In this document: in pieces, positions 3,200-9,452 of the stretch | Position numbering within the stretch: position 1 is the first letter of the stretch | Layout of the letters: each line of letters begins with the position of its first letter | Origin: a virus | Strand: one strand, 5' to 3' | Virus record (IMG/VR): IMGVR_UViG_3300045135_000293 | Span: 1 to 24,949 of that record | DNA: 24,949 nt | Notes under the pieces: model-generated | Databases searched by the model: none | What the model saw: the letters and a program-made list of their open reading frames with translations, nothing else | What the model was told of the DNA's origin: nothing | Translations under genes and position numbers: made by a program

Positions 3200-3536
3200 T
3201 TTTTACAAATCACACGCTTGGAAGTCAGACCCTGACGATTTATTTATGGAAAACGTCCTAGCATTCCGCAAGATCGTGCAGCTCTACGATTACGGCACAG
3301 AGTTTTACTTCCCCAACTACCGCGAAGCACCGTGGCATGTGCAAGCAGAAATTGGCGGTGAAAAGATCAACTTCTGGCCTCACAAGATGAAAGCGCATGT
3401 GGAGTACCGCAAAGGCGGGGCAGTAGAGGGCCGCTACGCAATCATTGACCTCATCAACGAGCAGATCGCAAAAGACGCAGACGGTGCATCCAATCCCGAC
3501 TATTGGAGTGATGACGAGTTTGATCTGTTTGAATGA
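3189..3536 (+). CDS. Hypothetical protein (115 aa)
   Basis: The start is the ATG at 3189 (MEYNFYKSHAW) after a GGGAGG Shine-Dalgarno sequence, inside the last codons of the nuclease gene. A longer frame from 3042 lies entirely within the nuclease and is not supported. The protein is rich in aromatic and acidic residues, ends DDEFDLFE and has no membrane segment. I do not recognise the family. The acidic Phe-containing C-terminus resembles the tail by which SSB-type proteins recruit partners, but that is only a resemblance. The stop overlaps the methyltransferase start. Confidence 0.75.
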   Translation: MEYNFYKSHAWKSDPDDLFMENVLAFRKIVQLYDYGTEFYFPNYREAPWHVQAEIGGEKINFWPHKMKAHVEYRKGGAVEGRYAIIDLINEQIAKDADGASNPDYWSDDEFDLFE

Positions 3537-4342
3537 TGCGGCATGTGGACATATGCAGCGGCATCGGCGGTTTTGCGCTGGGCTTTGAATGGGCAGAGTT
3601 AAGCAGCCCAGTTCTTTTCTGCGACATAGAGCCGTGGAGCCGCAAGATTTTAGCAAAGCATTGGCCTGATGTGCCGATTGCAGAAGATGTAAAGGAATTA
3701 GCAAATGACCCAGATGGACTTGTTCCAGACTGCGACATCATTACAGCAGGATACCCCTGCCAGCCCTTTTCACTTGCAGGGGAGCGCAGAGGCAGTGAAG
3801 ATGACAGACATATCTGGCCTTACATTTTCACCATTGTTCAAAGAAAAAGACCCTCTTGGTGCGTTTTCGAGAATGTTTATGGGCATGTCTCTATGGGCCT
3901 CGACGAGGTGCTATCTGACTTGGAAAGGCAAGGCTACGCCGCAAGGCCGTTCATTGTTCCAGCTTGTGCCGCTGACGCGCCTCACAGACGAGACAGAGTT
4001 TGGATCGTCGCCAGAAATGTGGCCGACAGCAACAGCGCGGGACTACAAGGGCGGCAGAACGCCAGAGACACTAGCCAAAGCAGGGCGCAACGAGACAAAC
4101 AGTCTGCCAGACGCAGTGAACGCCCAGATGGGCAAAACTGGCTCCCTGAACCCGCAGTGGGTCGAGTGGCTAATGGGATACCCAGAAGGGTGGACAGACT
4201 TAGAGGATTAGGAAATGCTATCGTGCCGCAGATCGCTATGCGCATAGGCCAGACGATCAAAGCGGTGCATGACATCCCAGCGCAGGGTCACGCGCACAAC
4301 AACGTCAACAAAGAAAAGGAAGACGACAATGCTAAAAATTGA
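3533..4342 (+). CDS. C5 cytosine-specific DNA methyltransferase (269 aa)
   Basis: The ordered motifs of C5 methyltransferases are present. Motif I is DICSGIGGFALGF for S-adenosylmethionine binding. Motif IV is GYPCQPFSLAG with nucleophile Cys76. Motif VI is FENV at 113-115. Motif VIII is HRRDRVWIVA around 151-160. The C-terminal motifs are VGRVANGIPRRVDRL and GLGNAIVPQ (about 209-233). The enzyme methylates cytosine at C5 in an unknown recognition sequence, probably to protect phage DNA from restriction. The region between motifs VIII and IX is short and low in hydrophobic residues, so the target-recognition domain is small. A second protein is encoded in another frame inside this gene (3705-4211). 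The start could be either of two adjacent ATGs. Confidence 0.9.
   Translation: MMRHVDICSGIGGFALGFEWAELSSPVLFCDIEPWSRKILAKHWPDVPIAEDVKELANDPDGLVPDCDIITAGYPCQPFSLAGERRGSEDDRHIWPYIFTIVQRKRPSWCVFENVYGHVSMGLDEVLSDLERQGYAARPFIVPACAADAPHRRDRVWIVARNVADSNSAGLQGRQNARDTSQSRAQRDKQSARRSERPDGQNWLPEPAVGRVANGIPRRVDRLRGLGNAIVPQIAMRIGQTIKAVHDIPAQGHAHNNVNKEKEDDNAKN
3705..4211 (+). CDS. Overlapping-frame methyltransferase-associated protein (168 aa)
   Basis: This frame lies wholly inside the cytosine methyltransferase gene, shifted by one base, yet it looks like a real protein. An AAAGGA Shine-Dalgarno sequence lies about eight bases upstream of MTQMDLFQT. The body carries segments that I recall from stand-alone phage proteins found with methyltransferases: LTWKGKATPQGRSLFQLVP, MWPTATARDYKGG and LNPQWVEWLMGYPEGWTDL. 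The last resembles the LMGFPxGWT segment of C5 methyltransferase C-terminal domains. Because the methyltransferase frame is also intact with all its motifs, both frames seem to be under selection. The role is unknown; target recognition or an accessory subunit is a guess. The family call rests on memory, not a search. Confidence 0.6.
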   Translation: MTQMDLFQTATSLQQDTPASPFHLQGSAEAVKMTDISGLTFSPLFKEKDPLGAFSRMFMGMSLWASTRCYLTWKGKATPQGRSLFQLVPLTRLTDETEFGSSPEMWPTATARDYKGGRTPETLAKAGRNETNSLPDAVNAQMGKTGSLNPQWVEWLMGYPEGWTDLED

Positions 4343-5270: not shown

Positions 5271-7466
5271 ATGGAAATGGAACACAAAATGCAAATTGCT
5301 CCCAAGTCCGACATCATTAAGCAATTCATATCACAAATTACAAAGAATTGGAATGAAGTTGGTCAGCCTTTATTAGAGATACGAGCAATCTCAACATCTG
5401 GATCAACAAACGCAGCACGTTTTAGGCTCGATCAAATTGACGAAGCAGTCCAACACGCCGAAGCAATGAACGCAGCCAAGGCAAACATCTACATGTGCAT
5501 CAATGCCATTGATCCAATCAAAGCCGAAGACATCCCAGCAGGCAAAGCCGCCAAGGACACAGACATCCTAGCAGCATTCTACTGCTTTGCAGACGCAGAC
5601 ACAAAAGGCGCAATGGAAAACATTATGTCGTTTGCAGGGCCGAAATTCACCATGTCAGTCAAGACAGGCACAACGCCATTCTCCAGAGGCCACGCATATT
5701 GGGAACTGGAAGAGCCTTGCAAAAACATGGACGCATGGAAAGAAGTCCAAAAATCCATAGCAGCCAGTCTCCAGACAGACGCGGCAGTCATAAATCCTAG
5801 CCGTATCATGCGCGTGGCAGGCACAGTCTCATGGCCGAACAAAAAGAAGCAAGACAAAGGCTACGTTCCTGAACTCGTCACAATGCGCACTGAGTTCACA
5901 AATGACCGCGATCCTCAGCCGTTTGAACGCCTCATGCGTGCATTCCCGAAAAAAGAAGTGCCTAACAATCAAACAAGCGGCATAGAAATAGACCTCGGAC
6001 AGCAAGCAATGGATCGGCAGCTTGCAGCGCAAAGCGTCATGGCAGGCGATGATTGGCACAACAACATCATCAGGCTCGTCGCCTCATACGTCAGCAAAGG
6101 GCTGTCAGACGAGGAAATCCACGCCATCACGGACAGCTTCACATTGTCAGGCTACTCGGTAGACGACACAAGACAAGAAGTGCAGCAGGCAATCAACGGT
6201 GCAAGAGACAAAGGATGGACGCCACCGCCCGATCCCATCAAAGAACGCATGCAGAAGCAAAACCAAGCTCTAAACATAGCCACAGAGCCGTCAGAAAGCC
6301 CCACAGAGAGCGAAACAGCCCCAAATTGGCCTACGCCCTATGAAATGTTTGATGCGCTCACGCTGCCGCGCAGGGAGTGGGTCTACGGATACGACTACAT
6401 CAAAAAATACATCAGCGTGACAGCCTCGGCAGGCGGGATCGGTAAAACAAGCGCAATCATCGTGGAAGCCTTAGCAATCGCAACTGGCAAGCCGCTCCTC
6501 GGCACGGCAGTTAAGCAGCAGACAAATGTTTGGGTCATCAACCTAGAAGACCCAATGTCCGAAATGCAAATGCGCACAATCGCTGCCATGCAGCATTATG
6601 GTCTGACACCAGACGACATCAAAGGCCGACTGTTCATGAACGGCGAAGACACAATGGAAATCACGCTGGCAGCAGAAAACAGGGACGGCCTCATCACAAA
6701 CGATGACATGTTGGCAGCCATGATCCGCGTCATCAAGCAAAACAAAATAGGCGTCGTCATCCTCGATCCGTTCGTTTCAGCACACCTCGTAAACGAAAAC
6801 AACAACGGATCAGTCCAGGCAGTCGTGGCAATGCTCAGAAAGCTCGCTAGAGACACAAACAGCTCAGTCCAGCTCGTGCATCACATCAGAAAAGGCAACG
6901 GTGACGATGCAACGATTGATAGTGTCAGAGGTGCAGGCTCGCTCATTGGGGCAGCACGGGCAGCCAGAGTGATCAACAGGATCACACCAGACGATGCAAT
7001 CGCGCTGGGCGTAGACGAACACGAAGCCCTCGGCATCTTCAGAATAGACGACGGCAAAGCAAACCTCGCACCGCCATCAGACAAGGCAGTCTACAGACGT
7101 ATGCAAAGCGTCGAAATAGCAAACGGTGAACACATCGGGGTTGCCACGGAGTTTAAGCTGCCCGATCTGTTTGACGGCGTGACAACCAAGAACCTCTACA
7201 ATGTTCAACGCACAATCGGCAAGGCAGAGGAAGCAGACGGTGCATACCGAGCAAACGCACAGGCTGACAACTGGGTTGGTAAGGCAGTCGCGGCAGAGCT
7301 AGACCTTGATCTGGGCAAGCCAAATCATGTGGCAAAGACGAAGGCAATCATCAAGCAGTGGATCAGCTCTGGCAGCCTGCAAGTTGTCAAGCTGCCAAAT
7401 AAACGAAAAGGCGGCGAAGCACCGTGTGTGATTGTTGGAGAGTGGGTGAACCATGACGAGGTGTAA
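5271..7466 (+). CDS. RepA-like primase-helicase (731 aa)
   Basis: Start at 5271 (MEMEHKMQIA) after AGGGAGGG; an in-frame start at 5232 lies over the upstream hairpin. The N-terminal 220 residues resemble archaeo-eukaryotic-type primase (RepB-like) domains: FADADTK near 106-112, a conserved GHAYWELEEP segment near 140-149, then NPSRIMRVAGTVSWPNKK. The C-terminal half is a RecA-fold ATPase of the RepA/AAA_25 type: Walker A GGIGKT at 388-393, WVINLED, Walker B VVILDPF at 495-501, the LVHHIRKG sensor near 535-542 and SVRGAGSLIGAARA. A fused primase and hexameric helicase would drive phage replication fork progression. The iteron-like block immediately downstream fits an initiator role. Confidence 0.87.
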   Translation: MEMEHKMQIAPKSDIIKQFISQITKNWNEVGQPLLEIRAISTSGSTNAARFRLDQIDEAVQHAEAMNAAKANIYMCINAIDPIKAEDIPAGKAAKDTDILAAFYCFADADTKGAMENIMSFAGPKFTMSVKTGTTPFSRGHAYWELEEPCKNMDAWKEVQKSIAASLQTDAAVINPSRIMRVAGTVSWPNKKKQDKGYVPELVTMRTEFTNDRDPQPFERLMRAFPKKEVPNNQTSGIEIDLGQQAMDRQLAAQSVMAGDDWHNNIIRLVASYVSKGLSDEEIHAITDSFTLSGYSVDDTRQEVQQAINGARDKGWTPPPDPIKERMQKQNQALNIATEPSESPTESETAPNWPTPYEMFDALTLPRREWVYGYDYIKKYISVTASAGGIGKTSAIIVEALAIATGKPLLGTAVKQQTNVWVINLEDPMSEMQMRTIAAMQHYGLTPDDIKGRLFMNGEDTMEITLAAENRDGLITNDDMLAAMIRVIKQNKIGVVILDPFVSAHLVNENNNGSVQAVVAMLRKLARDTNSSVQLVHHIRKGNGDDATIDSVRGAGSLIGAARAARVINRITPDDAIALGVDEHEALGIFRIDDGKANLAPPSDKAVYRRMQSVEIANGEHIGVATEFKLPDLFDGVTTKNLYNVQRTIGKAEEADGAYRANAQADNWVGKAVAAELDLDLGKPNHVAKTKAIIKQWISSGSLQVVKLPNKRKGGEAPCVIVGEWVNHDEV

Positions 7467-7475
7467 AGTTGCTAG

Positions 7476-7528
7476 CCACACTTCCACACCTTGTTTTCCC
7501 AAAGTGTGGGTAAGGTGTGGAAGTGTGG
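7476..7528. repeat. Perfect 17-bp inverted repeat
   Basis: Arms at 7476-7492 and 7512-7528 are exact reverse complements, each containing two copies of the CCACAC/GTGTGG core. The 19-base loop includes a further GTGTGGG. It could extrude as a cruciform or fold as a long RNA hairpin at the end of the primase-helicase transcript. Confidence 0.85.
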
Positions 7529-7630
7529 AAGAAAAGCCACAAAATACCCTTCCACACCACCTGCATATATATATGCAAGGTGTGGTGGGGTGGTGGTTTA
7601 GGTTGAAGTGGGGTGTGGAACAAGGTGTGG
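7476..7630. other. Iteron-like repeat and palindrome block, candidate replication origin
   Basis: Between the primase-helicase stop and the next gene, the core GGTGTGG or its complement CCACACC, with close variants, occurs about nine times. A 17-bp inverted repeat is perfect: CCACACTTCCACACCTT at 7476-7492 and its complement at 7512-7528, around a 19-base loop. A second imperfect one surrounds the 16-base AT-rich palindrome TGCATATATATATGCA (7562-7577), flanked by CCACACC and GGTGTGG. Further copies lie near 7611 and 7622. Iterons plus an AT-rich unwinding element beside a replication gene are typical of phage and plasmid origins, so an origin is the best guess. No protein-coding frame here looks real. 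Confidence 0.55.
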
Positions 7631-7649
7631 TAAATCGGAGGGTAAACAG

Positions 7650-8216
7650 ATGAAGCAGACCAAAAGACAAAAGAAGTCGGATCGCATATTGCATGGCAGT
7701 CAGTCCAGAGATGCCATCATGTGCGACTACGCTCTGGCTCCAGTTGACAGGCTGGCAATCCAGATGGACGAGAAGTGGGGGATTGATGTGCTGCCTGAAC
7801 TGGTCAGTGTCTCGATGTCGCAAAAGTATGGCAGTGCGGTGGCCAAGATGAATGCGGCAGTTGAGGCAGGCGATGTAGAAGAATGCAAGAAGCGATGTGA
7901 GGTCGTGATAAGAGGTCTGCAAGCGATGGATGCTGAGGCTGAACGTATTGGCGCACAGAGAGCCTCTACGGATGTTTGGGAAGTAGAGATAAACGGCAAG
8001 CTGTTCGGCGTTATGAAGGACGGTAGATCGTGGCGCACGATAAAGAAGCAGCGTCCTGAGTTGGAGCTGCTAACGCTGCGTGAGGTTGGGTTGGCTTACT
8101 CTTGGTTCCGCGACAACTGGGCAGGTGAGCTAGAGAAGTCGGCTAAGAAATCATTCCCAAGCGCAGAGGTTATCGACATCAAGGGGAAACTGTTTGACGA
8201 TCCTATTCCCTTCTGA
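7650..8216 (+). CDS. Hypothetical protein with SSB-like C-terminal tip (188 aa)
   Basis: Start at 7650 (MKQTKRQKKSD) after GGAGG; the longer frame from 7608 runs through the repeat block. The N-terminus is strongly basic. The middle is helical. A segment TDVWEVEINGKLFGVMKDG (residues about 107-125) looks like beta strands. The protein ends IDIKGKLFDDPIPF. The terminal DDPIPF is nearly identical to the acidic tip of bacterial SSB proteins, through which they bind replication and repair enzymes. The body does not resemble an OB fold by eye. It may be an accessory that docks on SSB partners, or a divergent SSB. It is the last gene before the operon terminator. Confidence 0.75.
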   Translation: MKQTKRQKKSDRILHGSQSRDAIMCDYALAPVDRLAIQMDEKWGIDVLPELVSVSMSQKYGSAVAKMNAAVEAGDVEECKKRCEVVIRGLQAMDAEAERIGAQRASTDVWEVEINGKLFGVMKDGRSWRTIKKQRPELELLTLREVGLAYSWFRDNWAGELEKSAKKSFPSAEVIDIKGKLFDDPIPF

Positions 8217-8969: not shown

Positions 8970-9452
8970 ATGGCGGGAAAGCAGCTAAAAAAGACAATAC
9001 TTGCAGACGTTGCCAAGAAGGGCGGCGCGGAATATGTGCGTGAGATGGCGTCTAGCATGACATTAAAGGCTTGGGCTGCTCAGGAATGGAAATGCAGCCG
9101 CAACTACCTGAGCGAGACGATCCGCAGTGTTCCTGAGTATGCTCGTGTATTAGAAGCTGCGCAGTCGGTTTTAGCGGATGCTATGATGGAGGAAAATGTT
9201 GAGATTGCTGATAGCATTCCAGAGACTGCATCGAGTACGCAGATTGCAAAGGTTCGTGAGCAAATGCAGGCACGAAAGATGTTGGCTGCTGGGCTGAATA
9301 GGGATCGGTACGGCTCTGGCCCTCGTGCTGAGATTACGTTGAACCTTGGTGATTTGCACTTGGATGCGCTTAGGAAGATCAGCTCAGACCGCCAGGCATT
9401 GATGGCAGAGGATCGTGAGCGTGAGATGAAGGTTATTGAGCATGACGAGTGA
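8970..9452 (+). CDS. Terminase small subunit (160 aa)
   Basis: The protein sits directly upstream of the large terminase subunit and overlaps it. Its N-terminal part contains a predicted HTH (MTLKAWAAQEWKCSRNYLSETI, residues about 29-50), the expected DNA-recognition element of small terminase subunits. The middle helices (ARVLEAAQSVLADAMMEENVE and KVREQMQARKMLAAGLNRDRYG) match the oligomerisation region and the closing RxRYG-like segment common in this family. It would recognise the packaging site and load the large subunit on concatemeric DNA. The Shine-Dalgarno sequence is GCGAGGCG. Confidence 0.8.
   Translation: MAGKQLKKTILADVAKKGGAEYVREMASSMTLKAWAAQEWKCSRNYLSETIRSVPEYARVLEAAQSVLADAMMEENVEIADSIPETASSTQIAKVREQMQARKMLAAGLNRDRYGSGPRAEITLNLGDLHLDALRKISSDRQALMAEDREREMKVIEHDE

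Follow-up and report, generated by a model that had tools for sequence, protein, structure and literature searches.

In PICI origins, which lie immediately 3' of the gene for their initiator, a melting region is flanked on either side by iterons (PMC6092414). According to a passage of PMC7581432 that cites Ubeda et al. 2007, the helicases of SaPI and SCCmec elements bind iterons downstream of their own genes by means of a C-terminal domain. Here we describe a locus with the same arrangement, two sets of iterons around a putative melting region 3' of an initiator-like gene, in the viral record IMGVR_UViG_3300045135_000293 (IMG/VR). The whole stretch analysed, positions 1 to 24,949 of that record, is referred to as the window. 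A preliminary description of the window had proposed a candidate phage origin in a block of short repeats. Comparison with related loci indicates that this block is very probably a phage replication origin and the binding site of the phage's own primase-helicase.

Results

The features of the locus are listed in Table 1. The word GTGTGG occurs nine times in the 155 bp of the block, in both orientations, and three times in the remaining 24.8 kb of the window. The maximum in any 155-bp stretch of 200 first-order Markov simulations of the window was three units. The block thus shows the dense clustering of a short repeated word that characterizes iteron origins. The preliminary description had counted about nine copies of GGTGTGG, which holds for the six-base core because the exact 7-mer is present only six times in the block. 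Its perfect 17-bp inverted repeat was borne out (arms of 17 nt each, 100% complementary, 19 nt apart), as were the 16-base palindrome TGCATATATATATGCA and the location directly behind a RepA-like primase-helicase gene, from which the block is separated by 9 bp. A 66-aa frame at 7453–7653 overlaps the block, and the earlier doubt about its coding capacity was justified: among 56 close loci, just 8 keep the ATG and 41 have no open plus-strand frame through the block, whose span is no fixed multiple of three. A coding frame across the block was consequently rejected.

Table 1. Coordinates of the features of the locus within the window
Feature	Position	Strand	Evidence or remark
RepA-like primase-helicase gene, 744 aa	5232..7466	+	AAA_25, PHROG 906, PDB matches
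C-terminal winged-helix domain (predicted), residues 633-744, putative iteron reader	7128..7463	+	AF2 model, VIA-align, covariation
Codon of Q677, best predictor of iteron base 1	7260..7262	+	
Wing codons of R725 (associated with iteron base 5) and K726 (associated with iteron base 4)	7404..7409	+	
Whole iteron block, putative replication origin	7476..7630	.	
Left arm of inverted repeat with two minus-strand iterons (7476, 7484)	7476..7492	.	
Three plus-strand iterons (7504, 7515, 7523); right arm of inverted repeat is 7512-7528	7504..7528	+	
Central dyad: minus-strand iteron 7552-7557, palindrome 7562-7577, plus-strand iteron 7580-7585	7552..7585	.	
Two distal plus-strand iterons (7613, 7625)	7613..7630	+	
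188-aa ORF after the block	7650..8216	+	no family match; GC3 skew +0.29, already right-like

The protein encoded upstream of the block matches PHROG 906 (DNA polymerase/primase, 1e-39) and is laid out as a putative N-terminal primase-like part, a RecA-fold AAA_25 helicase (residues 368–556) and a predicted C-terminal winged helix. The helicase part matches Pfam AAA_25 with E = 7e-35, and the closest solved helicase is RepA (PDB 1g8y, E = 8.8e-7, residues 396–623). These matches point to a RecA-fold, putatively hexameric helicase homologous to RSF1010 RepA. A match to PrimPol (6zp9, E = 0.011) argues weakly for the primase-like part. The AF2 model of the whole protein is poor (mean pLDDT 50), and the model of the C-terminal domain alone (mean pLDDT 80) was used instead. 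It contains helices at residues 652–667, 682–690 and 697–713 and wing strands at 716–722 and 729–735, which places residue 677 just before the second helix and residues 725 and 726 at the tip of the wing. PDB winged-helix chains top the VIA-align list for this model, with middling Z of 7–8. The domain matches no Pfam family, a PDB sequence search with its profile gave chance matches only, and Foldseek found nothing below 1e-3; the domain is a winged helix as modelled, and the assignment therefore depends on the model and the middling VIA-align scores.

Close relatives of the primase-helicase are encoded on 80 viral contigs. The block is found beside the gene in about 77 close relatives. All contigs on which the 3' end is intact have it, whether immediately after the gene or separated from it by an inserted ORF. 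The orientation of the units (--+++-+++) is mostly kept, the word being GTGTGG, GTGAGG or CTGTGG, and a switch of word affects all or nearly all copies within a block. The same layout, with GTGCGG, GTGGGG, CTGGGG, CTGGAG, GTGACG and other words, recurs in more distant relatives (35–60% identity), which come from viral contigs and from Alphaproteobacterial plasmids and genomes. At least six copies of one 6-mer lie within 230 bp downstream of the gene in 168 of 292 unique relatives, compared with never more than five in shuffled sequences. The remaining 124 have fewer copies and include a large Rhizobiales prophage group with a different C-terminus. Rhizobiales prophage relatives (loci L162–L209) retain the winged-helix domain and Q677, and no repeat cluster was found within 1.3–1.5 kb downstream of the gene there.

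The carriers are tailed phages, prophages and plasmids, and the named hosts are mostly Alphaproteobacteria; a search of INPHARED found no close relatives among named phages. The RepA-like gene of Microcystis phage Mae-Yong1326-1 has ACTGGCGC repeats and a hairpin of 26 bp behind it, and this locus is probably a further member of the family. The ORFs inserted between the primase-helicase gene and the block in about 21 relatives differ from one another and encode 184–283 aa. Loci L002, L006, L007, L009 and L019 are among these, and one such ORF has a PAPS-reductase-like motif. By this comparison, the gap between gene and block is a hot spot for cargo.

The sequence of the central dyad varies widely among relatives while remaining self-complementary, as in ACGTATATATATACGT, GTTGTATATATATATACAAC and CCCCTTTAGGGG. 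The best hairpins in the blocks mostly have 9–12 paired bases compared with 5–7 in shuffled sequences, a statistic that mixes the dyad with some inverted pairs of iterons. In many relatives the dyad is GC-rich with a TWWA centre, and it is AT-rich in only part of the family. The proposal that the palindrome serves as an AT-rich unwinding element is thus borne out in part. Since self-complementarity is the conserved trait and the dyad is often GC-rich, folding into a hairpin or cruciform may be more important than AT-richness, and we infer that a hairpin or cruciform step could take part in loading or priming.

The relationship between the iteron word and the protein was assessed with the iteron written as xTGyzG, where x, y and z are bases 1, 4 and 5. 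Among close relatives, the mean association of protein columns with the word is 0.24 over the final 95 residues, compared with 0.03–0.14 elsewhere. In a wider set of 151 loci and 380 protein columns, residue 677 is the best of all columns for base x (0.60, runner-up 0.15) and wing residue 726 is the best for base y (0.43). Q677 occurs with G at base x in 93 of 93 loci and R or K677 with C in 48 of 53, so that 141 of 146 fit the rule. The rule was then checked out of sample, on 79 new unique proteins retrieved once it had been settled, and it was followed in 38 of the 41 scorable loci, including 29 of the 32 whose C-terminal domain is less than 60% identical to any earlier one. On a tree built from the helicase part, with the C-terminal domain left out, base x changes 17 times; supported branches provide 11 independent pairs, of which 8 are in line with the rule, none contradicts it and 3 show no difference (p about 0.008). 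Five loci combine R677 with G, which suggests that this residue accepts either base. C and G also occur side by side within some blocks, perhaps as an intermediate stage in a change of word. In loci L281, L294 and L282, which have a near-identical helicase and C-terminal domain with R677, the commonest word is CTGCGG, CTGTGG or GTGTGG.

The first rule for base y, which took residue 726 from HMM columns, failed on distant new loci, with 6 of 20 calls right. The wing was re-anchored on the preceding Asp after this failure had been seen, and the rules for 726 and 725 are thus partly post hoc, as a consistent pattern came only with the new anchoring. With this post hoc anchoring, Q726 occurs with A in 40 of 40 loci and D726 with C in 30 of 30, with S, A, H or T base y is mostly T, with K it is either G or T, and with R it is mixed; likewise post hoc, R or K725 occurs with G at base z in 159 of 165 loci, Q with A in 5 of 6 and H with C in 3 of 3. 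Contacts of Gln with adenine, Arg or Lys with guanine and Asp with cytosine are common between side chains and bases, and by analogy this chemistry favours direct reading of the bases. Across these comparisons, the iteron word tracks the modelled C-terminal winged helix, and in this respect the adjoining putative initiator gene and its iterons are matched as in known iteron origins.

Two natural pairs illustrate the same relationship. In loci L063 and L025 the helicases match at 278 of 279 positions and the C-terminal domains show four aligned differences, one of which is Q677R; the iterons change from GTGTGG to CTGTGG, as Q677R predicts, and the intergenic DNA is otherwise nearly alike except for the central dyad, which is a different self-complementary sequence. 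For loci L318 and L344, 274 of 275 positions agree in the helicase, compared with 66 of 97 in the C-terminal domain, and their iterons read GTGCGG and CTGTGG, respectively. This second pair suggests that C-terminal domain and origin were transferred jointly, as one module.

The genes around the block in the window are all on the plus strand. Left of the block, their GC3 skew is close to zero or negative (−0.24 in the primase-helicase gene), whereas the genes that come next on the right mostly have positive values (+0.29 to +0.52). The AT skew likewise reverses at the block. The flip of third-position skew was found in all 31 testable relatives, with mean GC3 skew of −0.10 on the left and +0.35 on the right. 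In the 21 loci with inserted cargo, the inserted ORF is left-like (−0.03) and the gene past the block right-like (+0.34), so that in 21 of 21 cases the flip goes with the block and not with the point where the primase-helicase gene stops. In these loci the gene past the block has a less regular AT skew. The preliminary description had suggested a skew analysis, with absence of a change at this site counting against an origin, and sequence composition revealed the change. This indirect signal is what a bidirectional origin in the block would be expected to produce, although selection or transcription can account for part of it.

Discussion

The reading of the block as an origin is supported because the block is conserved beside the gene, its words co-vary with the C-terminal domain and the strand skew flips there. 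Counting against it are the loci that join R677 to G, the mixed blocks, the failure of the first rule for base y on distant new loci, the Rhizobiales prophages with the domain and no nearby repeat cluster, and the possible share of selection or transcription in the skew flip. An alternative is that it is an operator or attenuator for the next genes, bound by the primase-helicase or another protein, and no origin. The block sits between two genes on the same strand, and proteins that bind iterons, whether of plasmids or of viruses, are often transcriptional repressors as well. A scan detected neither promoter-like nor terminator-like sites within the block, however, and a skew flip that tracks the block past inserted genes is unexpected for an operator, which leads us to consider this explanation unlikely.

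A packaging (pac) site read by the small terminase is very improbable, even though terminases can bind repeats and a small-terminase-like gene (8970–9452) lies about 1.3 kb downstream, because the iteron word tracks the C-terminal domain of the primase-helicase at chemically plausible residues and similar blocks follow the related helicase gene on plasmids as well. We give hardly any credence to a structured RNA or small coding gene, which the strong inverted repeats and the 66-aa frame might suggest: apart from the poor conservation of that frame and the variable span, Rfam has no match to the block, and units in both orientations change their word together, as sites in double-stranded DNA would. 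The window also contains a gene for a C5 cytosine DNA methylase (3533–4342), overlapped by a second long frame at 3705–4211.

If the block is an origin, initiation could proceed as follows. The winged helices of several protomers would bind the iterons, with residue 677 contacting base 1 and wing residues 725 and 726 contacting bases 5 and 4. The helicase would assemble around the dyad and then melt it, the fused primase would prime both strands, and forks would leave in both directions. We speculate, at slightly less than even odds, that a widespread family of primase-helicases from phages and plasmids has an origin code in which residues 677 (Q for G, R or K for C), 726 (Q for A, D for C, S, A or T for T, K for G) and 725 (R or K for G, Q for A, H for C) directly contact x, y and z, respectively, and that C-terminal domain and origin are swapped between phages as one specificity module that separates the replication of related phages in a shared host.

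Beyond the preliminary description, the analysis names the putative binding domain and the likely specificity residues, with a rule for residue 677 that held on new data, and indicates that origin and C-terminal domain travel together. The choice of start site by the primase-helicase may thus be largely readable from sequence. A putative origin and initiator can now be assigned in a large group of phages, most of them uncultivated, in which a PICI-like origin layout is joined to an unrelated helicase; we found no description of this family in open PMC papers. Well over a hundred matched pairs of domain and origin form a natural library for reading origin specificity, and origins, possibly also replication compatibility groups, could be predicted from metagenomic contigs. 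If the specificity module is real, related phages could keep their replication separate in a shared host.

Comparison with known systems

Parallel diversification of iteron words and of an iteron-binding domain is known from geminivirus Rep (PMC12548392 and references therein), a rolling-circle initiator of single-stranded DNA plant viruses that is unrelated in protein and mechanism. Phage P4 alpha (ori/crr), discussed in PMC4234260, is a single protein with primase, helicase and, at its C-terminus, a winged-helix domain that binds the origin; it, too, uses iterons. Of this architecture, the helicase and the modelled winged helix are supported in the window and the primase part weakly (by the PHROG 906 and PrimPol matches); P4 alpha differs in its bacterial-type (Toprim) primase and its repeats, and no sequence match to the C-terminal domain encoded in the window was found in PDB. 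The oriV system of RSF1010 (RepA/RepB'/RepC) provides the closest solved helicase and has iterons together with hairpins (ssi) for priming (PMC4234260), but it divides the functions among three separate proteins, and RepC rather than the helicase reads the iterons. The pRN1 ORF904 replicon likewise has a primase-helicase with a C-terminal winged helix and a displaceable origin stem-loop directly downstream (PMC4234260), but it is an archaeal plasmid with an SF3 helicase and without iterons.

The closest resemblance in layout is to the pri-rep-ori region of PICI and SaPI elements, where the origin likewise lies directly 3' of the initiator gene, two iteron sets surround a central element, the iteron sequence differs between elements, and a C-terminal helicase domain, here as a prediction, binds the iterons. 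The centre in our family is a self-complementary dyad, and the carriers are tailed phages, prophages and plasmids. PICIs are satellites without structural genes that encode helicases of the PICI Rep families, whereas the window encodes a RepA-type, RecA-fold helicase (AAA_25) and carries phage terminase and packaging genes, and the element is therefore not a PICI. Judged by its layout, it would work like one at the origin only.
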